64,000 nt of DNA from a virus, in the IMG/VR virus record IMGVR_UViG_3300035180_000343, positions 62,001-126,000 of that record; one strand, written 5' to 3'. The notes under the pieces were generated by a model. It saw nothing but the letters and a program-made list of their open reading frames with translations. It ran no database searches and was not told where the DNA came from. Positions 15,311 through 47,397 of the stretch are shown piece by piece. Each line of letters begins with the position of its first letter. The first letter of the stretch is position 1. The position numbers were made by a program, and so were the translations under genes.

Positions 15311-16579
15311 ATGAAACAATTACTCGCATACAAATATCGGATTTATCCAACAAAGGATCAAGAAATCCTCTTGAGCAAAACCTTTGGTTGTAAGAGAGTA
15401 ATCTTCAACCATTACCTAGAAGTGCAGCAAACCAGATACAAAAACAAAGAACCTCGGTTAAGCAATTTCGACATCAACAAAGACATCACCAAGTTAAAAG
15501 ATGAAAAGGAATGGTTGAGGGAAGTCGATATAAACGCACTACAAGCGGCGGCGGGAGATTTGTCTGTTGCATATGACAATTTCTTCAAGTCGGTTACTGG
15601 TAAGAGAAAAGGTCCGAAGATTTCTCCACCGAAGTTCAAGAACAAAAATTCTAGACAGTCGTATAGGACTCGTAATGTTCGCGTCAATGAAGACGGTTCT
15701 TTACAGATACCAAAACTAAAGTCAGTCAAAGCAGCCATCCACAGAGAAATTCCAGAAGGATCGATAATTAAATCGGCGACCATATCAAGGAACCCAGATG
15801 GAAGATATTACGCATCAATATTAGTTGAAACAGAAGTAGCATTGCAGCCAATGACAGGTAAAGAAGTCGGTTGCGATTTAGGTCTCAAGGATTTGTTAAT
15901 CACTTCAAGTGGTATAAAATTCAAAAGACCCGATGATTTACCAAACATTGCGAGAACCAAGCAATTGTTGAAGTTGAAGCAAAGACAGTTCGCAAGAACC
16001 GTTAAAGGTAGCAAAAATCACGAATCGTTAAGACTTCAAGTAGCACGACTTTATTCGAAGAGCACAAGACAAAGAAATGAATATTATCATCTAGTTAGCA
16101 GATACTTGGTTGATAATTACGATTCTATCTACGTCGAAGACTTGTCGAGTAAAAATATGTTACAGAATAGGAAGTTGAGTCGAGCGATTCATGAAGTGGC
16201 TTGGACAACTTTGTCCAATATGATTTCATATAAATCATCTTGGGCTGGTAAAACTTATCATCAAATCGATCGTTGGTATCCAAGTAGCAAGACCTGTAGC
16301 TCTTGTGGTCATAAGCTCGAGAAACTTGATCTTGGCACTAGAGAATGGACTTGTCCGTCTTGTGGAACTCATCATGATCGTGATTTAAATGCTGCTATGA
16401 ACATTCTTCATGTCGGTCAAGCCGACTGCTACGGAGAAGAAATGAAGTCGCAAGCAACAGGCGACTTGGGACTAGAGATCCCAGTGGCCCTACAGAAAAT
16501 GACCATTAAAATCGAGAGATCCAACGCTACGTTGGTTGGTCATGGGAGTGGGCAAGCTACGTCCTTTAGGGCGTGGTAG
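15311..16579 (+). CDS. tnpB: TnpB RNA-guided nuclease, copy 1
   Basis: 422 residues. An N-terminal helix-turn-helix/REC region leads to a split RuvC domain: GCDLGLKDLL (Asp), YVEDLSSKNM (Glu), and a four-Cys zinc finger CSSCGHK...CPSCG followed by DRDLNAAMNI (last Asp). All catalytic residues are present, so it should cleave DNA using an omega-RNA from the right end. The start is MKQLLAYKYRIYP. TATAAATA just upstream would give an almost leaderless mRNA. The stop codon lies inside the right-end hairpin. Confidence 0.93.
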   Translation: MKQLLAYKYRIYPTKDQEILLSKTFGCKRVIFNHYLEVQQTRYKNKEPRLSNFDINKDITKLKDEKEWLREVDINALQAAAGDLSVAYDNFFKSVTGKRKGPKISPPKFKNKNSRQSYRTRNVRVNEDGSLQIPKLKSVKAAIHREIPEGSIIKSATISRNPDGRYYASILVETEVALQPMTGKEVGCDLGLKDLLITSSGIKFKRPDDLPNIARTKQLLKLKQRQFARTVKGSKNHESLRLQVARLYSKSTRQRNEYYHLVSRYLVDNYDSIYVEDLSSKNMLQNRKLSRAIHEVAWTTLSNMISYKSSWAGKTYHQIDRWYPSSKTCSSCGHKLEKLDLGTREWTCPSCGTHHDRDLNAAMNILHVGQADCYGEEMKSQATGDLGLEIPVALQKMTIKIERSNATLVGHGSGQATSFRAW

Positions 16580-21999: not shown

Positions 22000-22386
22000 T
22001 CATTTGTGCCTTACGTTCTCTTTAGTAACCAAATCGTGCACAATTCTAACAACTTTTACGTCAGGACACAACCTTTCAATTTCGTCGGCCTGGATTGGGT
22101 CGTCTTCGTAGTGAATTACTATTTTCATGTCAAAAATAGAGTTCAACAGATTGATGGTTTTTCCTTTATGAGTCCCAGACGACAATCTACTCTTTTTGTC
22201 GAATGGAAGTGGATTGAAGAAGGGGTAATTCATAATCCCCCTACTCTTCAACATCGCTATCGTTTCTGGAATTTCTTCAAACGACCTTCCAGTGATAATG
22301 ACATCGTTTTCTCTTGGAGTTAATCCAGGATATTCTCCCATGAAAATAACTCCGTCAATGTCATAACTCGCAATAGGATCATTCAT
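22000..22386 (-). CDS. HAD-family phosphatase
   Basis: 128 residues. Motif I YDIDGVIF (DxD), motif II VIITGRS, a Lys region, and motif IV HYEDDPIQADEI are in order; no cap domain fits. It starts 8 bases inside the end of ino1, so the two proteins are made together. It could dephosphorylate inositol 3-phosphate or act on a nucleotide. The substrate is inference from position. Confidence 0.75.
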   Translation of the reverse strand: MNDPIASYDIDGVIFMGEYPGLTPRENDVIITGRSFEEIPETIAMLKSRGIMNYPFFNPLPFDKKSRLSSGTHKGKTINLLNSIFDMKIVIHYEDDPIQADEIERLCPDVKVVRIVHDLVTKENVRHK

Positions 22387-23665
22387 AGTCAGTCTTTCCA
22401 GCTTGAAATGTATATGGAAGATCTTTCGCCCTTGGCCGTTTGTCTTTTAGTTGAGGCTCAGTCAACTTTGTCAACACTCTCCTTGCAAGTGCATCACACT
22501 CAAACTTTGCATCGTTGGTTGAAAGTTGAAGAGGAGGAGTTTTCTGAGTCCAAGCAGAAGGACCACGCAAAAATCCAACGACTCCAAGTTCCGAAGCCAC
22601 TTTGCAGAATCGAATTGCCGAGATAACCACTCCACCGGAATTAGGAGAATCTTGAACCGACATTCGACATGCAAGCTCATAACGAGCTCCAGCAAATCCG
22701 TAAGCAACTATGTCGATATTACAAATCTTATTATCAGACCCAACATATTGTCCACCTGGTTTCTGATGAACAGTTAATGATGGGCCAGCATAGAGTGTCA
22801 TTCCGGCAATTGATTCATTTCGAACCGAGTTTTGTCCCTTCAATACGTTTTCTTTTGAAACGTGTTTACTATGGAGCCTATCTTTGCTCGACATATTTAA
22901 GAAATCGGTATTTGCCGTTCTACCAGTTCTAATATGTTCCTGACCCTGTGTGCTTCCCGCGCTCATATTAAGTTGAATATGCTGAGAAACTATAAGACCA
23001 GAATCGAGCATTGCTCCTTGGAGAACTTCGGAAAGTCTCGATGCTCCCCATGCCGACCGCATATCTGACCCAACAATTGTTAGCCCAGCATCAATAAATT
23101 TCTGTTCATATTCCATAGTCTCTTCGGTTGAAATTAGTGTCGGAATACAATTTACTACATGGCATTTTGCTTGAATTGCGGCGTCAATATAAAACCGACT
23201 TGCTTCTTCTGAACCAACTGGAAGGTAGTTAATTACTACGTCGACCTTATGATATTTTAAAAGATCGACAATTCGTTGGAACGGCTCGGCTGGAATTGCT
23301 CCAGTCCTAAATGAAACATCTTCTGGGAAATCTAGCATATAGGGAGCAACTCCGTCGAGCTCAGGTCCAGAGTAGACAATTGCTCCCTTTTCGACACACG
23401 CAGTCGGTCCAGTGTCAACAATCTGCCGAACGTGGTCCATCGCACAATTTGGTTTAGCGCGAAGTGCTTCGATTAGTGGACGGTTAACTTTTCGAATATC
23501 AACATCAAACCCACAAACGAATTCAATATCGTGAGCAGTATAACCCCCAATATCATGATACATCAACCCGACTTTATCGGTCGGGTTTTCATTGTAATAT
23601 TGGACTCCCTCAACTAAACTTTTTGCACAATTTCCAACACCAACAATCGCGACTCTGATTTTCAT
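22379..23665 (-). CDS. ino1: Myo-inositol-1(3)-phosphate synthase
   Basis: 428 residues. The Rossmann start RVAIVGVGNCAKSLVEGVQY, then DIEFVCGFDVD, DMRSAWGASRLSEV and FLNMSSKDRLHSKHVSK match the actinobacterial/archaeal Ino1 type. NAD-dependent conversion of glucose 6-phosphate to inositol 3-phosphate. I know of no standard phage role. Without tnpB element 2 its start would lie about 24 bp behind the dpdA stop. It is now transcribed from the element's outward promoter or by read-through. Confidence 0.88.
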   Translation of the reverse strand: MKIRVAIVGVGNCAKSLVEGVQYYNENPTDKVGLMYHDIGGYTAHDIEFVCGFDVDIRKVNRPLIEALRAKPNCAMDHVRQIVDTGPTACVEKGAIVYSGPELDGVAPYMLDFPEDVSFRTGAIPAEPFQRIVDLLKYHKVDVVINYLPVGSEEASRFYIDAAIQAKCHVVNCIPTLISTEETMEYEQKFIDAGLTIVGSDMRSAWGASRLSEVLQGAMLDSGLIVSQHIQLNMSAGSTQGQEHIRTGRTANTDFLNMSSKDRLHSKHVSKENVLKGQNSVRNESIAGMTLYAGPSLTVHQKPGGQYVGSDNKICNIDIVAYGFAGARYELACRMSVQDSPNSGGVVISAIRFCKVASELGVVGFLRGPSAWTQKTPPLQLSTNDAKFECDALARRVLTKLTEPQLKDKRPRAKDLPYTFQAGKTDYE

Positions 23666-23834: not shown

Positions 23835-25106
23835 ATGAAACAATTTATCTCGTACAAATATCGGATTTATCCAACAGAAGACCAACAAGTTCTTCTGAGT
23901 AAAACCTTTGGCTGTAAACGAGCGATTTTCAACCATTACCTTGAAATACAGGAAACTCGATTTAAAAACAAAGAACCTCGGTTAAGCAATTTCGACATCA
24001 ATAAAGACATTACCAAACTGAAGAAAGAAAAGGAATGGCTATATGAAGTTGATAATGCTGCATTACAATCTTCTGCTGAAGACTTAACAAAAGCATACGA
24101 CAATTTCTTCAAGTCGGTTACTGGTAAGAGAAAAGGTCCGAAGATATCTCCACCGAAGTTCAAGAACAAGAATTCGCGCCAATCATATAGAACTCACTAC
24201 GTTCACGTTAATGAAGACGGAACACTGCATATTCCGAAACTAAAGTCAGTCAAAGCAGCCATCCACAGAGAAATTCCAGAAGGATCGAAAATTAAATCGG
24301 CGACCGTTTCAAGAAATCCTGACGGAAGATATTATGCATCAATTTTAGTAGAAACAGAAGTAACATCAAGGCCGATGACCTATCGGGAAGTCGGTTGCGA
24401 TTTAGGTCTCAAGGATTTGTTAATTACCTCAAGTGGTATAAAATTCAAGAGGCCAGATGAATTGCCGAACATTGCGAGAACCAAGCAATTATTGAAGTTG
24501 AAGCAAAAACAGTTCGCGAGAACCGTTAAAGGTAGCAAAAATCACGAATCTTTAAGACTCCAAGTAGCACGGCTTTATTCGAAGAGCACAAGACAAAGAA
24601 ACGAATATTATCATCTAGTTAGTAGATACTTGGTTGATAATTACGATTCTATCTACGTTGAAGACTTGTCGAGTAAAAATATGTTACAAAACAGGAAGTT
24701 GAGTCGAGCAATCCACGAAGTGGCGTGGTCAACCTTGTCTGGGATGATCCAGTACAAATCATCTTGGGCTGGTAAAACTTATCATCGGATTGATCGTTGG
24801 TATCCAAGTAGCAAGACTTGCTCTTCTTGTGGTCATAAACTTGAAACACTTGACCTCGGCACCAGAGAATGGACTTGTCCGAACTGTGGAACTCATCATG
24901 ACCGTGATTTAAATGCTGCTATGAACATTCTTCATGTCGGACAATCCGACTGTTATGGAGAAGCAATAAAGTCGCATGCAATAGGCGACTTGGGACTAGA
25001 AATCCCATCGGCCCTACAGAAAATGACCATTAAAATCGAGAGATCCAATGCTAATGTGTTGGTTGGTCATGGGAGTGGGCAAGCCGCGTCCTTTAGGAAG
25101 CGGTAG
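23835..25106 (+). CDS. tnpB: TnpB RNA-guided nuclease, copy 2
   Basis: 423 residues, highly similar to copy 1 throughout. Catalytic GCDLGLKDLL, YVEDLSSKNM, zinc finger CSSCG...CPNCG and DRDLNAAMNI are all intact. Begins MKQFISYKYRIYP. TATAAATA lies 8 nt upstream and no Shine-Dalgarno is seen. Differences from copy 1 are scattered substitutions, so it is an older divergence and not a fresh transposition. Confidence 0.93.
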   Translation: MKQFISYKYRIYPTEDQQVLLSKTFGCKRAIFNHYLEIQETRFKNKEPRLSNFDINKDITKLKKEKEWLYEVDNAALQSSAEDLTKAYDNFFKSVTGKRKGPKISPPKFKNKNSRQSYRTHYVHVNEDGTLHIPKLKSVKAAIHREIPEGSKIKSATVSRNPDGRYYASILVETEVTSRPMTYREVGCDLGLKDLLITSSGIKFKRPDELPNIARTKQLLKLKQKQFARTVKGSKNHESLRLQVARLYSKSTRQRNEYYHLVSRYLVDNYDSIYVEDLSSKNMLQNRKLSRAIHEVAWSTLSGMIQYKSSWAGKTYHRIDRWYPSSKTCSSCGHKLETLDLGTREWTCPNCGTHHDRDLNAAMNILHVGQSDCYGEAIKSHAIGDLGLEIPSALQKMTIKIERSNANVLVGHGSGQAASFRKR

Positions 25107-30938: not shown

Positions 30939-32213
30939 ATGAAACAATTACTCGCATTCAAATATCGGATTTACCCGACAAAGGATCAAGAAATCCTCTT
31001 GAGTAAAACCTTTGGCTGCAAGCGAGCAATCTTCAATCATTACCTAGAAGTGCAGCAAACCAGATACAAAAACAAAGAACCTCGGTTAAGCAATTTCGAC
31101 ATCAACAAAGACATCACCAAACTAAAAGATGAGAAGGAATGGTTAAGGGAAGTCGATTCGGTTGCTCTACAATCTTCTGCTGAAGATCTAACAAAAGCAT
31201 ATGACAATTTCTTCAAATCCGTAACTGGTAAAAGAAAAGGTCCAAAGATTTCGCCACCGAAGTTCAAGAACAAGAATTCACGTCAGTCGTATCGAACTCG
31301 TAATGTTCGAATTAATGAAGACGGTTCGTTACAAATACCGAAACTAAAGTCAGTCAAAGCAGCCATCCATAGAGAAATCCCAGAAGGATCGGTGATCAAG
31401 ACAACGACCATTTCGAGGAATCCAGATGGAAGATATTATGCATCAATTTTAGTAGAAACAGAAGTAGCACTGCAACCAATGACCCATAGGGAAGTCGGTT
31501 GCGACCTCGGGTTAAAGGATTTGCTTATCACCTCAAGAGGTATAAAATTTAAAAGACCAGATGAATTACCGAACATTGCGAGAACCAAGCAATTGTTAAA
31601 AGCAAAGCAAAAACAGTTCGCAAGAACTGAAAAGAGTAGCAAAAATCACGAATCTTTAAGACTTCAAGTGGCACGTTTATATTCAAAGGTCACCCGACAA
31701 AGAAATGAATATTATCATCTAGTTAGTAGATACTTGGTTGATAACTATGACTCCATCTATGTCGAAGACTTGTCGAGTAAGAACATGCTACAAAACAGGA
31801 AGTTGAGTCGAGCGATTCATGAGGTAGCTTGGTCAACCTTATCTGGGATGATCCAATATAAATCATCTTGGGCTGGTAAAACTTATCATCGGATTGATCG
31901 TTGGTACCCAAGCTCAAAGACCTGTTCTAGTTGTGGTCATAAACTTGAAACACTTGACCTCGGCACCAGAGAATGGACTTGTCCAGATTGCGGAACTCAT
32001 CATGATCGTGATTTGAATGCTGCTATGAACATTCTTCAGGTCGGTCAAGCCGACTGCTACGGAGAAGCAATAAAGTCGCATGCAATAGGCGACTTGGGAG
32101 AAATCCCATCGGCCCTACAGAAAATGATCATTAAAATCGAGAGATCCAATGTTGATACGTTGGTTGGTCATGGGAGTGGGCAAGCCGCGTCCTATAAAGG
32201 ACGCGGTAGTTGA
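30939..32213 (+). CDS. tnpB: TnpB RNA-guided nuclease, copy 3
   Basis: 424 residues, all RuvC and zinc-finger residues intact (GCDLGLKDLL, YVEDLSSKNM, CSSCG...CPDCG, DRDLNAAMNI). One codon is missing near the C-terminus compared with the other copies (GDLGEIP against GDLGLEIP). This shortens a loop of the predicted omega-RNA stem while keeping both reading frame and stem. TATAAATA precedes the ATG by 8 nt. Confidence 0.93.
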   Translation: MKQLLAFKYRIYPTKDQEILLSKTFGCKRAIFNHYLEVQQTRYKNKEPRLSNFDINKDITKLKDEKEWLREVDSVALQSSAEDLTKAYDNFFKSVTGKRKGPKISPPKFKNKNSRQSYRTRNVRINEDGSLQIPKLKSVKAAIHREIPEGSVIKTTTISRNPDGRYYASILVETEVALQPMTHREVGCDLGLKDLLITSRGIKFKRPDELPNIARTKQLLKAKQKQFARTEKSSKNHESLRLQVARLYSKVTRQRNEYYHLVSRYLVDNYDSIYVEDLSSKNMLQNRKLSRAIHEVAWSTLSGMIQYKSSWAGKTYHRIDRWYPSSKTCSSCGHKLETLDLGTREWTCPDCGTHHDRDLNAAMNILQVGQADCYGEAIKSHAIGDLGEIPSALQKMIIKIERSNVDTLVGHGSGQAASYKGRGS

Positions 32214-37822: not shown

Positions 37823-40819
37823 TTAAAAGAAATCATCGATGCTATATCGTTTTTCGGCCGACCAATTGATGGTAGATAGAATGTTGTTAATCGGACTCAT
37901 GAATGCTTTTTCCCATTGAAGTTCCTTGTCAATGTACGGGACCAAATCGGGTGGCATTTTATCGACAAAAGCAAACGCATTCTCTCGCATTGGATTTGGA
38001 ATTTTCATATAGAAAAACTTGATCTTTTCCCCTTCTCCTACCAATCTAAACTCTGATTCCAATTTAGAATCGGTGACGTACTTATTATACATCAATGCTG
38101 CTCGAACGTGAAACGGCGTTCCTCCCCTATAAATTGAATTTTTGTCCTTATACTTTTCCAAGTTATTAGCAGTTCTTGGAAAGGCAATCTGCTCTGGGGG
38201 AAAATTCATGAATTCATTTTTACACTGTTTGATGAATTCTTGCAAATCAGACTCGGTGCTCAATAAGCATTTCTGTAGAGCAGTCTTTAAAGTTTTTCTA
38301 CATACGGTTGGAGTGCTCGCCCGATTAACTTCGATTCCAGTTACTGAAATCTGTGGCTCGTCATATATTACACCTTCATTATAAAGATAGGCAAGAACAT
38401 ATCGTTTCTTCCCTCTCCAAATTGCGGCCTGACAAATCTTTTCAATCTTAAATGCAAATGCATTCTCATAACAATTTAGGCCGTCGAATATTTCCTTACA
38501 TGCCGCATCTACTACCTGTTGAAGTTTTTGGTTAACGAATTTCTCGATAGCGATAGCAATTTTGTTTGCATTAGATAAAATTGATTCTGGGAATAGTTTT
38601 GTAACTATTTGATTTAAATCGAGATATAATGAATTGTGCACTAAAATGTTGTTGGCAAAAAAGTTATGACATTCATTCACTTCGATGTCATATACCCAAT
38701 CTTCAACGATTCCCAATGACTCAATCTTAAAATCTGTTTCTTCTTTCATCGATGTTCTTTTGAGTTTAATAAATTTGTCCGATGATAGTACATCTTTTGG
38801 TTTAATGGAAATTATTTCCCCGTCTCGCTTAACAATCAAGGAATGGTCGGAGGTACAAATAATAGAATCTTTCCCCACAGTTATTTTAAACATCTCTTTC
38901 TTTACTTTATGTTTCATAACATAGTTGATTGGTCTATATACTTGGTTTCCCTCGGAATCGACGGCTGCTGCGTTCAATCCAACTTTAGACTTTACTATAT
39001 TTCCGGTACTTGTTTTAATCTCGGGTGCATCTGTTTGATTAAAGATTTCCTCGATTGTCTTTTGGCAATTGTCTAGCTGAATTAACGACGATCCAGCGAC
39101 GGAATCAGTATCGGTGTACGCAACAAAATCAATATCCTGTGTTTTCAGCAATTGATTCAAAAATTCGTTGACTCGATTGCCGACATGACGAATCAACAAC
39201 TGACCAGTCAACGTCGTTGCTTCCGCACACCTATTGTCAAAGTGTCTGAAGAAACGATTAGCAGTGGCGCCATAAAACGAATTCAACAACGTTTTCAATG
39301 CGTTTTGTTTATTATCTAACGCTGAAATTTCCAAATCCAGTTCTAACTTTCGCCTTTCGTCTGTCTCTTTTTGCTTTTCCTTTTTCTTCTCGATCATCAA
39401 CTTTTTCGTATCTGCGCGTCTATTATATACTCGAGTTACGATCTTTCCGATATGACTTTGTTTACGCCGATAAAAAGATCCATTAGGAGCAAACGACAAG
39501 TCATACTTCTTTAAAACTGCTTCAATCTTTTTAATGTTCTTTAACAAAGCATCGACAGAATGCATTAAATAGAATTCTCTGAGCTCCAATGGAAGAGCGT
39601 CATATTCAACAATTGTCTCGGATGAAATATTAACAGAACGAATATTAGATGGGTAAAGTGAGTTTGCATCGAGACTTACTACCCATTCATGTCGCCCAAC
39701 AATCGGGTCTTTTACATACGCACCTTCAATTGAACTTGAATCGCTTGGAGGTGTAAAAACAGCATCGACAAAAATGTTTTCCCTTGCCAGCTCATTTTGA
39801 ATAAAGAAATCCCATGTTTTAACTGGGCTAAACACGTCCTCGTAGTTCACCCCAGCCATATAGGCAACACTGATATGCTGGCTTAGAAGTTTCTTTTTGT
39901 TTTCAATGTCTACAATTAGTTGAACGTCTATGCAGTTATATTCGACGAACTTTTTCCAGTCTCGATCTTGAAATGCTTGGAATGATTCAAACTCGCTGTG
40001 ATCTAGCTTGTTTGCGCCAAGCACTTCGAACGCTATATCGTCAAGTTTATAACTTTCTCTTTCACCTGGAACATACTTCTTAAACAAGTCAAGATAATCA
40101 ATGAGAGCAATGCCACCAATCTTATATGAATAAGAATTTGTTAGATCATCATACCTCTCATATATGTTACCAATTGGCGAAAGTCGTTTTGTTTCTTCTG
40201 GGCCAAGAATTTTCGATATCCGACGAACTAGATATGGGATATCAAACCCGTCACTATTCCATCCTACGATGATGTCTGGACAATTTCCGTTAATATGATT
40301 TACAAAAGATTGAAGAAGGAATTGTTCAGTTGCACAATAACGATAATCTGTCTTATCTGTTTCAAGCGGATGAAGTCCCCATGTGATGAACTTAGACCCG
40401 TTAAAAATTGTGATGAGGGAAACCCTTTCTGCAGCATCCCTCGGATTTGGGAATCCACCGAGAACAACCTCGGTTTCGATGTCCAAATAATAAGTTAGAA
40501 TCTTTGATTCATCATACGTCGACGGAATTTCAAATTTCTCTGAGATATATGCGTAGGGGAAATTGGTATTTCCAAACAGCTCAAACCCTACAACAGCATC
40601 ATATTCCTTTAAGTATTCTTTTGCTTCTCGAATTGAATCGAATTTGGTGGGGGAAATATTATCTCCCTTCATCGACTTATACTTAGATTCCTTGTTTGAC
40701 TTGGTGAATAAAGTAGGGGAATATTCGTCAATGGTCGTGACACGATTGCCATTCCGATCAATAAATCTACAAAAGACTTTGTTTCGATATTGCTGGAAAT
40801 TTAGAAAAAACGGTTGCAT
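37823..40819 (-). CDS. 43: Family B DNA polymerase (gp43) with mini-intein
   Basis: 998 residues; 841 after removal of a 157-residue intein (573-729). Exonuclease motifs: YYLDIETE, IVGWNSDGFDIPYL and VEYNCIDVQ. Polymerase motif A is SLDANSLYPSNIR, motif B LLNSFYGATANR. Motif C is YTDTD-S, split by the intein right after DTD and rebuilt as DTDSLYLDL on splicing. The C-terminus YSIDDFF resembles the T4 clamp-binding tail. In T4 43 follows regA; here it is 18 kb away beside queD. Confidence 0.95.
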   Translation of the reverse strand: MQPFFLNFQQYRNKVFCRFIDRNGNRVTTIDEYSPTLFTKSNKESKYKSMKGDNISPTKFDSIREAKEYLKEYDAVVGFELFGNTNFPYAYISEKFEIPSTYDESKILTYYLDIETEVVLGGFPNPRDAAERVSLITIFNGSKFITWGLHPLETDKTDYRYCATEQFLLQSFVNHINGNCPDIIVGWNSDGFDIPYLVRRISKILGPEETKRLSPIGNIYERYDDLTNSYSYKIGGIALIDYLDLFKKYVPGERESYKLDDIAFEVLGANKLDHSEFESFQAFQDRDWKKFVEYNCIDVQLIVDIENKKKLLSQHISVAYMAGVNYEDVFSPVKTWDFFIQNELARENIFVDAVFTPPSDSSSIEGAYVKDPIVGRHEWVVSLDANSLYPSNIRSVNISSETIVEYDALPLELREFYLMHSVDALLKNIKKIEAVLKKYDLSFAPNGSFYRRKQSHIGKIVTRVYNRRADTKKLMIEKKKEKQKETDERRKLELDLEISALDNKQNALKTLLNSFYGATANRFFRHFDNRCAEATTLTGQLLIRHVGNRVNEFLNQLLKTQDIDFVAYTDTDSVAGSSLIQLDNCQKTIEEIFNQTDAPEIKTSTGNIVKSKVGLNAAAVDSEGNQVYRPINYVMKHKVKKEMFKITVGKDSIICTSDHSLIVKRDGEIISIKPKDVLSSDKFIKLKRTSMKEETDFKIESLGIVEDWVYDIEVNECHNFFANNILVHNSLYLDLNQIVTKLFPESILSNANKIAIAIEKFVNQKLQQVVDAACKEIFDGLNCYENAFAFKIEKICQAAIWRGKKRYVLAYLYNEGVIYDEPQISVTGIEVNRASTPTVCRKTLKTALQKCLLSTESDLQEFIKQCKNEFMNFPPEQIAFPRTANNLEKYKDKNSIYRGGTPFHVRAALMYNKYVTDSKLESEFRLVGEGEKIKFFYMKIPNPMRENAFAFVDKMPPDLVPYIDKELQWEKAFMSPINNILSTINWSAEKRYSIDDFF
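38633..39103 (-). other. Mini-intein at the pol-c site of gp43
   Basis: 157 residues beginning SVAGSSLIQLDN (Ser1), with block B ITVGKDSIICTSDHSLIV, block F YDIEVNECHNFFANN, terminal LVHN, and Ser +1. No endonuclease domain. The insertion point matches the archaeal pol-c site (after YxDTD). Confidence 0.9.
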
Positions 40820-42532: not shown

Positions 42533-42910
42533 TTAAACTTTGATCTCGCTGTATCCAGTTGCTGTCGAAAACACAATCCTTTTTATCTTCATTGCTTGAA
42601 TGATCGGAAAACAGAGTTCACATGGCATAGCTAACCCAGTTCCACCTTTTTTCATCGACCTAGAGACAAACATAGTCGAACCATTCAACTCTTTAATTCT
42701 GCCACTTTTAATCAACTTCATCACAGCATCCATCTCGGCATGAAGAGAACCCTCAAAGTGATTAGATTTTAGCCGACTCTTTCTAATTTGGTTATGACCA
42801 GTCGAAATAATTCGATCACCTTTAGTAATCACGCATCCGACATTAGCTCTGTCGAATGTAGACTTAAAGGATTCGATAGTCGCCTTTTCCATCAATCTTG
42901 TGTAGTTCAT
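42533..42910 (-). CDS. Cytidine/dCMP deaminase-family protein
   Basis: 125 residues from ATG 42910; an internal ATG at 42892 is possible. Zinc motifs are SLHAEMDAVM and MPCELCFPII with deaminase spacing. A second deaminase besides 8775-9212, with a different sequence. The sigma-70 -10 box ends only 7 nt before ATG 42910, so the mRNA is leaderless or begins at 42892. Could act on a modified-base precursor; substrate unknown. Confidence 0.75.
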   Translation of the reverse strand: MNYTRLMEKATIESFKSTFDRANVGCVITKGDRIISTGHNQIRKSRLKSNHFEGSLHAEMDAVMKLIKSGRIKELNGSTMFVSRSMKKGGTGLAMPCELCFPIIQAMKIKRIVFSTATGYSEIKV

Positions 42911-42916
42911 GCTAAA

Positions 42917-42945
42917 AGTATAATGGATTTGGTCTGAAATGTCAA
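42917..42945 (-). promoter_or_regulatory. Sigma-70 promoter of the deaminase operon
   Basis: TTGACA, 17 bp, TATACT on the minus strand, immediately downstream of the tmRNA terminator. Confidence 0.75.
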
Positions 42946-42958
42946 TAATTTTCTGTAG

Positions 42959-42987
42959 AAAAGAAAGGGATGTCGTTTGACATCCCC
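42959..42987 (-). terminator. Intrinsic terminator of the tmRNA
   Basis: Minus strand GGGATGTC-AAAC-GACATCCC followed by TTTCTTTTC. Confidence 0.9.
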
Positions 42988-42989
42988 GA

Positions 42990-43315
42990 ATATTTGATCC
43001 AGCCACTTCTGTTGCCAAGCAGGCTGGTCGCTCCGAGTCTTAAATCAGTCTGCAATTAAGCAGCCAGACGAACCTCATATGTTGCGTCGTTAGACGCTTC
43101 CACGTTTGCATTTACTTCATTTGCTTCTTCAACTATCACGGCTTCTGCGTTGCCGATTCTCCAGTTATCTTAATCATCGCCAATCGATTCCAATTCAGCC
43201 CCATCGGAAATACAGACAATTGCGTCTATACTTCTGATGAGGTTGGTGGAGCTGGAGAGACTCGAACTCTCTTCTTGTTCGACTTTCGATAACCTTCACC
43301 GAATTCTTTAAATCA
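42990..43315 (-). ncRNA. ssrA: Circularly permuted (two-piece) tmRNA
   Basis: Minus strand, 5' to 3'. An acceptor piece ends with T-arm GAGAG-TTCGAGT-CTCTC and CAGCTCC-A-CCA (CCA at 43244-43246). Then a 41-nt spacer (43203-43243). Then a coding piece starts GGGGCTGAATTGGAATCGAT at 43202. GGGGCTG pairs with CAGCTCC, including the G3-U70 wobble read by alanyl-tRNA synthetase. GATAAC in the coding piece pairs with GTTATC in the acceptor piece (P2). A pseudoknot-like CGGC/GCCG precedes the tag. The tag frame ends TYEVRLAA-stop (TAA at about 43061). A terminator follows. The 5' limit is approximate. Confidence 0.85.
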
Positions 43316-43385
43316 ATTTGGGCCAAAATACATCAGAGGATTTGGCGAAAAACGTTTTAATTGACAACCACGTACCAAAAACATA

Positions 43386-43775
43386 TTACTTCTCCAGGTA
43401 CTTTCTCCAAGGCTCGGGCATGTTACAATTTGAACCACACCGCTTAAAGAGTGGAGCAATATCTTTGTCATCGAATCCTGCCAAGCCACAACCTACCCTT
43501 GTGACCCAGAATTGAATGTGAGGGTTAGCAAGGGATGCATTAACGAAGTCATTGATGTGACCTCGAACTTTGTCGAACGAAAGACTCCGAATGTTTTCGT
43601 CTTTTGTTGGAATTGCTAGAGATTGTCCCACCAACCCTCGTCCAAGTCCACGCACGGCGCCGAATCGAAGTTGAGCTTCGAGTGCGGCACCTGCTCCGTG
43701 AATCCCGGCAAGGTTTGATCCGAACACGAAGATTTCTCCATTCTCTGGAGTTGTCATGTCTTTATGGTATTTCAT
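43386..43775 (-). CDS. Macro-domain-like phage protein
   Basis: 129 residues from ATG 43775. FVFGSNLAGIHGAGAALEA, GLGRGLVGQSLAIPTKD and VTRVGCGLAGF follow the A1S_2505-type phage family, which resembles macrodomains (glycine-rich ADP-ribose loops). It may bind or hydrolyse ADP-ribose-type ligands; activity is inference. Its ATG overlaps the stop of a 39-aa membrane protein (ATGA). Directly upstream of the tmRNA on the same strand. Confidence 0.65.
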   Translation of the reverse strand: MKYHKDMTTPENGEIFVFGSNLAGIHGAGAALEAQLRFGAVRGLGRGLVGQSLAIPTKDENIRSLSFDKVRGHINDFVNASLANPHIQFWVTRVGCGLAGFDDKDIAPLFKRCGSNCNMPEPWRKYLEK

Positions 43776-43891
43776 GATCCAGCCCCAATCAAAATTGTTC
43801 CGTTGATCTTCTCGAAAATCGTGATGACGACCAAAGCACACATCATCACACCACAAACAATCCCAATCACTCGATCTGTATTGATTTCCAT
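43772..43891 (-). CDS. Small single-span membrane protein, 39 aa
   Basis: MEINTDRVIGIVCGVMMC then ALVVITIFEKINGTILIGAGS. GGAG lies 9 nt upstream of the ATG at 43891. One clear membrane span. Coupled to the macro-like gene by ATGA. Function unknown. Confidence 0.6.
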   Translation of the reverse strand: MEINTDRVIGIVCGVMMCALVVITIFEKINGTILIGAGS

Positions 43892-43902
43892 TTTATTCTC
43901 CA

Positions 43903-44139
43903 TCAAAATTCGATTACTTCATAATTGTCAATGCAGCCATCTTCGCGATCGTCGAATCTCTTAACATTAATGTCAACGGAAAACTTTTCGAATGTGTCTC
44001 CGATTTGTTCGAGCAGTTTGTTGTAGCAGAAATCTTCAGACATGAGAACTGCTTCACCTTCATCTTCGGCAAATGTGATAGCACTGCCACCAAAATTCGA
44101 ACCGTAATCTGTGCTAAACTTCACTACATACGCGTTCAT
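43903..44139 (-). CDS. Small acidic hypothetical protein, 78 aa
   Basis: Start ATG 44139 with GGGGAAATAAA upstream: MNAYVVKFSTDYGSNFGG. Longer in-frame readings run through the antisense repeats of the neighbouring gene and are rejected. Resembles short T4 early acidic proteins in style only. Confidence 0.6.
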   Translation of the reverse strand: MNAYVVKFSTDYGSNFGGSAITFAEDEGEAVLMSEDFCYNKLLEQIGDTFEKFSVDINVKRFDDREDGCIDNYEVIEF

Positions 44140-44140
44140 T

Positions 44141-44509
44141 TTATTTCCCCTGAGCATTGCCAAGCATCCATGTATTGCCGAACACCTCGATATTGTCACC
44201 CACTTGGGCGATACCGCCGACATAGGCATTATCGCCCACCAGCGCATTGTCAAACACTGATGCATCGCCTCCCACCCATGCATCGCCTCCCACCCATGCA
44301 TTGTCGAACACGTGTGCATTGCCACCAACCAACGCGTTACCACTAACCCACGCATTGTCACCAACCCATGCGTTCCCTTTTTGGGACAAATTTGCTTCGG
44401 ACGCAATCCAGCCGCCAAGATCACCAGCCTTTACATTGCCGAAATCTTTAAGTGCTCTAATTTGGAACAGACCACAGTCGTTCTTGATATCCGTCAATTC
44501 ATATTTCAT
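44141..44509 (-). CDS. Hexapeptide beta-helix protein, paralogue family C copy 2
   Basis: 122 residues. Same cap as 33002-33400 (MKYELTDIKND, GDLGGWIASEANLS). About 11 repeats of WVGDNA/WVSGNA/VFDNA type follow, more regular than in copy 1. Behind repeated promoter copy 5. Left-handed beta-helix expected. Confidence 0.7.
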   Translation of the reverse strand: MKYELTDIKNDCGLFQIRALKDFGNVKAGDLGGWIASEANLSQKGNAWVGDNAWVSGNALVGGNAHVFDNAWVGGDAWVGGDASVFDNALVGDNAYVGGIAQVGDNIEVFGNTWMLGNAQGK

Positions 44510-44546: not shown

Positions 44547-44575
44547 ATTATATAAGAAGTCCGAAAGAATGTCAA
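44547..44575 (-). promoter_or_regulatory. Repeated early promoter, copy 5
   Basis: TTGACA, 17 bp, TATAAT on the minus strand. Confidence 0.85.
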
Positions 44576-47285: not shown

Positions 47286-47315
47286 TTTAGTTCTCCTATT
47301 TACTTCTATCTAGAA

Positions 47316-47389
47316 GGAGTCTAGGTGGATTCGAACCACCGACCTCGCGTTTATCAGATCGCGCGCTCTAACCACCGAGCTTCAGACTC
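47316..47389 (-). tRNA. tRNA-Ile (GAT), irregular anticodon arm
   Basis: Acceptor GAGTCTG / TAGACTC, D-arm GCTC..GAGC, T-arm GGTGG-TTCGAAT-CCACC. The CTGATAA loop gives anticodon GAT. The anticodon stem CGCGAT / ACGCG has one extra base on the 5' side, a bulge. No CCA encoded. Confidence 0.75.
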
Positions 47390-47397
47390 CTAAATTT

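Follow-up and report, generated by a model that had tools for sequence, protein, structure and literature searches.

Does this stretch of phage DNA encode a working tmRNA of the two-piece kind, and, if so, at which codon would translation resume on its coding piece? tmRNA is an RNA that releases ribosomes which have stalled and tags incomplete proteins for destruction. The window, that is, the whole stretch of 64,000 nucleotides analysed here, corresponds to positions 62001-126000 of the 129,321-base IMG/VR virus record IMGVR_UViG_3300035180_000343, which is a linear fragment. A first-pass annotation had described a phage-encoded, circularly permuted tmRNA with a tag of alphaproteobacterial style on its minus strand.

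The identification as a circularly permuted, two-piece tmRNA is supported by two kinds of search. The Rfam model RF04321 (tmRNA_permuted) matches positions 43304-43056 of the minus strand along its entire length (model positions 1-213 of 213), with a score of 79.9 bits and an E-value of 1.1e-13 in a scan of the 64-kb window. The score exceeds the curated 47-bit cut-off, and the match is the sole one to RF04321 in the whole record. ARAGORN agrees, reporting a permuted gene (tmRNA*) at 42965-43337 minus, and the fold z-score of the whole tmRNA is -3.4. The gene is closest to the alphaproteobacterial type, and all 355 positions of the corresponding model, RF01849 (alpha_tmRNA), could be aligned with it (43353-42996), but the score of 37.1 bits falls below the curated cut-off of 50 bits. 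We have therefore filed the gene in the general permuted family, as a member with alpha-like features. The gene and its immediate surroundings are made up of the following features.

44547-44575, minus: candidate sigma-70 promoter with a 12/12 match to consensus, the nearest exact site upstream of the tmRNA
43386-43856, minus: gene of a phage family without known function, phrog_2072, next to the tmRNA
42965-43337, minus: whole permuted tmRNA precursor (ARAGORN; RF04321 and RF01849)
43288-43294, minus: P2 strand of the acceptor piece, GGTTATC, which pairs with GATAAC at 43169-43164 and is paired in the covariance-model alignment
43244-43272, minus: part of the acceptor piece with the T arm, the 3' strand of the acceptor stem and the CCA, AGAGAGTTCGAGTCTCTCCAGCTCCACCA; T stem 5/5
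43203-43243, minus: intervening spacer of 41 nt, expected to be removed, which folds as a 14-bp hairpin (-14.6 kcal/mol, z -5.5)
43180-43202, minus: start of the coding piece, comprising the 5' strand of the acceptor stem and a region resembling a D loop, GGGGCTGAATTGGAATCGATTGG
43164-43169, minus: P2 strand of the coding piece, GATAAC (RF01849 alignment)
43139-43158, minus: hairpin at the position of pseudoknot 1, with stem 1 CGGC/GCCG (structure line of the covariance model)
43056-43130, minus: alternative tag frame, GAA resume codon at 43130 after ATAGTT, EEANEVNANVEASNDATYEVRLAA-stop, 24 residues (ARAGORN)
43056-43109, minus: preferred tag frame, GCA resume codon at 43109, ANVEASNDATYEVRLAA-stop, 17 residues (RF04321 and RF01849 alignments)
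42999-43027, minus: 3' hairpin of the coding piece with the alpha-type loop GGCAACAGAA (-14.4 kcal/mol; end of the RF01849 match aligned)
42966-42987, minus: intrinsic terminator (fold z -4.8)
42533-43018, minus: dCMP deaminase gene, next to the tmRNA

The two halves of the tRNA-like part lie in permuted order: the CCA ends at 43244, the spacer follows, and the coding piece starts with GGGGCTGAATTGGAATCGAT from 43202 (GGGG; strand GGGGCTG). All 7/7 acceptor pairs form, as first described, including the G-U at the third pair that provides the alanine identity element G3-U70; an anticodon arm is absent. The other elements of the proposed layout, namely the CCA end, the 41-nt spacer, P2, the tag ending in TYEVRLAA and the terminator, were likewise all found in place. 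Pseudoknot 1 has no clear stem 2; inspection by eye yields a short CAAC/GUUG candidate.

The C-terminal end of the tag, LAA (RLAA), is followed by a TAA stop codon at 43056. The annotation had suggested that it may begin at the GAA codon, for a tag of about 24 residues, and ARAGORN gives the same reading. ATAGTT makes a good motif ahead of the GAA, with an A at position -4 and a T at position -1. E. coli tmRNA requires an A four bases upstream of the resume codon (PMC2481249), and 69 of the 75 alphaproteobacterial genes in which the codon was called have this A together with the T at -1. The GCA of the window gene, however, is preceded by the same two bases. What is more, both RF04321 and RF01849 place the conserved UAAAUGCAAACG at the resume codon, which makes this codon GCA (GTAAAT followed by GCA). 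The context AGTAAAY followed by GCAAAY is common to other phage tmRNAs, and in L090, L092 and L096 it recurs in the longer form GAAGTAAAY followed by GCAAAY, with GAAGTAAAC preceding GCAAAT. The distance from GGGG to the resume codon is mostly 82-89 nt in alphaproteobacterial genes, with a mode of 84-86, and amounts to 93 nt for the GCA and to 72 nt for the GAA. Between the stem-1 strand GCCG and the GAA there are only 8 nt, while related genes have ~22-24 nt there (counted from printed sequences); since 8 nt is too short for a pseudoknot, the GAA reading is disfavoured, and we consider it unlikely. The comparison points to GCA as most likely the resume codon and to ANVEASNDATYEVRLAA as the tag, so the shorter tag from a later GCA, which the annotation had offered as its second choice, appears to be the better reading. 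Because A is at -4 in both sites, minor use of the GAA is possible. The two readings are in one frame and have one C-terminus, and degradation would thus be the same either way. The tag given by a gene finder can evidently be wrong in permuted tmRNAs, which matters where tags serve for guesses about the host.

The genes around the locus are those of a T4-like phage. On the same strand lie replication genes for a T4-type family-B DNA polymerase, gp32, a RecA-like protein, a DnaB-like helicase, the clamp loader and an SbcC-like subunit, together with genes for the ribonucleotide reductase NrdA/B, QueE, PTPS and an RNA ligase. The position of the tmRNA inside this cluster of replication and nucleotide genes, with a consensus sigma-70 promoter upstream, confirms that it is phage-borne. 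For the polymerase and the SbcC-like subunit, the nearest annotated phages are cyanomyoviruses and Melnitz at ~40% identity, which indicates a distant T4-like lineage. We found no close relative that spans the tmRNA locus. Contig L021 encodes a polymerase 98% identical to that of the window, but it begins within the polymerase gene, short of the tmRNA, and no permuted tmRNA was found in 37 of the 40 records related by polymerase or neighbour gene. SmpB is absent from the 129-kb record, which represents an incomplete genome; host SmpB is presumably used.

Two phage records, L066 and L067 (the latter on a contig of 166 kb), encode a phrog_2072 relative at 58% identity together with a one-piece tmRNA with the tag GNYNLALAA. 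They had been candidates for permuted tmRNAs, but their match to the model was below the cut-off. Phages that share the phrog_2072 gene therefore carry either form of tmRNA.

Exact TTGACA-16/18-TATAMT sites occur 15 times in the window, all on the minus strand, against 0.09 in shuffled sequences, and 17 times in the whole record. The 15 sites of the window span 11360-58292 minus, with the form TTGACA-17-TATAAT/TATACT and many with the common spacer TTCTTTCGGACTTCTTA, and they may form a family of early promoters of the phage. Between the site at 44575-44547 and the tmRNA lie two open reading frames (43903-44424 and 43386-43856), and no terminator-like site was found on the minus strand in this interval. 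A further promoter at 42945-42917, downstream of the tmRNA terminator, serves the deaminase. This arrangement suggests a unit that ends with the tmRNA gene and is transcribed by host RNA polymerase, probably at an early stage of infection.

Several other features of the window were noted. The T4-like DNA polymerase gene (37823-40819 minus) encodes 998 residues, compared with ~830 in relatives, and residues 583-729 match the intein splicing domain PF14890 with 41.7 bits (cut-off 35.8); the polymerase matches in relatives L038-L041 are longer still. Three TnpB-type IS605 OrfB genes of 422-424 codons lie on the plus strand among minus-strand genes (15311-16579, 23835-25106 and 30939-32213), two of them with near-identical TTGACAAAATGGTTT promoters directed away from the gene start (15255-15227 and 30886-30858). 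ARAGORN reports a tRNA-like gene at 47315-47390 minus with no assigned amino acid and a two-base anticodon, which scores 49.6 bits with the Rfam tRNA model. The 428-residue protein encoded at 22379-23665 minus contains a myo-inositol-1-phosphate synthase domain (PF01658, 34.7 bits, cut-off 27), an unusual enzyme for a phage.

The first-pass annotation named only the one-piece kind among known phage tmRNAs, but a two-piece gene in a phage is not novel. Buchholz et al. 2022 found tmRNAs in 402 of 18,146 phage genomes; of 133 unique structures 53 were two-piece, and 50 of these 53 were marine or aquatic (PMC9004378). The same study describes a two-piece tmRNA in phage Melnitz and proposes upkeep of ribosomes or degradation of host proteins as its role, and the 2025 tmRNA database, the source of RF04321, contains 79 phage sequences (PMC11915505). 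More such genes were found in IMG/VR, as described below. The window gene is a divergent example of the known phage two-piece tmRNAs and not a new kind.

The gene of Methylophilales phage Melnitz (MZ577096.1) is, like that of the window, a permuted alpha-type tmRNA in a T4-like phage. It scores higher with both models, 113.4 bits with RF04321 and 106.7 bits with RF01849. Its tag is ANDNYVPVDYALAA, whereas the 17-residue tag of the window gene is without the usual ANDN start. The Melnitz gene also has a 142-nt spacer and is immediately followed by a glutamine riboswitch, both of which the window gene lacks. With the Caulobacter-type alpha_tmRNA of RF01849 the window gene shares the gene order, G3-U70, the GCA resume context, the loop of the 3' hairpin and the LAA end of the tag. 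It differs in having a C5-G68 pair, UUGGAAUCGAU where GGGGGCGAAAUAGGAUCGAC is usual, a pseudoknot 1 without a clear second stem, and five tag residues between A and ND. In alphaproteobacteria the family was found over the cut-off in 174 of 190 genomes, and RLAA ends 6 of the 75 tags that could be called. This distribution supports an alphaproteobacterial origin for the type of tmRNA, not the assignment of a host to this phage. Melnitz infects OM43, yet its tmRNA is of the alpha type (PMC9004378), so the type of tmRNA is no safe guide to the host.

Pattern scans and model searches of IMG/VR recovered about 20 more phage lineages with a permuted tmRNA over the cut-off, although some of the contigs are short with beta-type genes and a few may be host DNA. 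G3-U70 is kept throughout 28 non-identical pattern hits (one of which, L005, is spurious), while pair 5 of the acceptor is C-G, G-C or A-T, a compensated position. Spacers of 30-62 nt are present in other phage permuted tmRNAs. Pattern matches L005, L013 and L017 were discarded because they are not tmRNAs. The strict pattern of T arm and acceptor gave no near-identical copy of the window gene in IMG/VR, and a DNA search in which the tmRNA was compared with annotated phages gave only a 28-bp match at chance level. By nhmmer, the nearest genes are that of L011, on a 229-kb contig, and the L087/L106 group. These exceed the RF04321 cut-off and have ATCGATTGG after the acceptor strand in common with the window gene; they differ from it in their spacers and tags, the latter being ANDNFFATAIAA in L011 and ANLKASGNVTFVNFGAKLPTNDQVFALAA in L087.

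Tags of 28-29 residues, such as ADFKANGNVTFVNFGAKLPTNEEFALAA, are encoded by the phage permuted tmRNAs of L087, L088, L100, L104, L106 and L107, and the differences among them fall mainly at third codon positions (8 of 12 between L087 and L088). This bias is consistent with selection on the peptide. The L087, L088 and L104 contigs contain ribonucleotide reductase and weak baseplate-hub matches. A long tag as a general mark of phages was dropped, since ARAGORN gives 20-30 residues for alphaproteobacterial L205, L206, L214 and L217; tags of this length are present in reduced alphaproteobacterial genomes. The permuted tmRNA of a further phage, recovered from three samples (L085, L099 and L102), scores 68.1 bits with RF04321; its spacer is 41 nt long and its stem-1 region resembles that of the window gene. 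It has no Ala-Ala tag end; by eye, the tag could be EIELT or come from a frame of 27 residues with the end LQANA.

The acceptor piece, spacer hairpin, coding piece with tag, 3' hairpin, terminator, G3-U70 and an intact LAA frame are all present in the window, and on this sequence basis we regard the gene as very probably a functional two-piece tmRNA of the alphaproteobacterial type in a T4-like phage. Against this stand a score below those of bacterial alpha genes (79.9 bits compared with 127-166 bits in the bacterial genes listed), a pseudoknot 1 that is hard to complete because stem 2 is not evident, the lack of a close relative with the locus, and the lack of SmpB in the record. The first three points would favour a captured host gene without selected function, now decaying, whose tRNA-like part is still good because the capture was recent. 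In such a gene, however, the critical elements would hardly be expected all to be intact, as are the 17-codon LAA frame, G3-U70, P2, the strong 3' hairpin and the terminator. In addition, the closest nhmmer matches are mostly phage tmRNAs (L011 and L087/L106) and not the bacterial ones sampled, with the reservation that the phage loci were chosen by DNA pattern, and this makes it less likely that the gene was captured very recently from a known group of hosts. Decay thus appears quite improbable. The absence of SmpB bears on another possibility, a decoy that ties up SmpB or stalled ribosomes and slows host trans-translation, since the phage RNA must compete for host SmpB. There is a precedent in DS6A, whose tag-less tmRNA slows host trans-translation when expressed in E. 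coli (PMC11915505, PMC4131195). A decoy has no need of a tag frame, yet the resume signal, the 17 codons, LAA and the stop are intact in the window gene, and we give this possibility even less credence than decay.

If the gene is a functional tmRNA, the early transcript from the promoter at 44575-44547 would end with it. Host RNase P and tRNA 3'-processing enzymes would excise the 41-nt spacer, and the two resulting RNAs would stay joined by the acceptor and P2 helices. After charging by host AlaRS, host SmpB would deliver the tmRNA to ribosomes stalled on truncated mRNAs, which are likely to be abundant in lytic infection through mRNA decay. The nascent chain would gain Ala and ANVEASNDATYEVRLAA and would then pass to host proteases of the ClpXP type. 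The likely gain for the phage is that ribosomes would be kept free, and amino acids perhaps recycled, during the destruction of host DNA and RNA.

One could also speculate that an early-made phage split tmRNA swaps the host tag for a longer one, so that proteins truncated in the course of infection are treated differently from those of the host, and that this purpose is common to the lineages with tags of 17-34 residues (the window, L087/L088/L104, L093 and L098); we see a slim chance that this is so. With the window gene, the phages known to have two-piece tmRNAs gain a divergent T4-like lineage. The intact anatomy of the gene and its place in an apparently early unit lend support to the view that phages of this kind may sustain ribosome rescue during infection.
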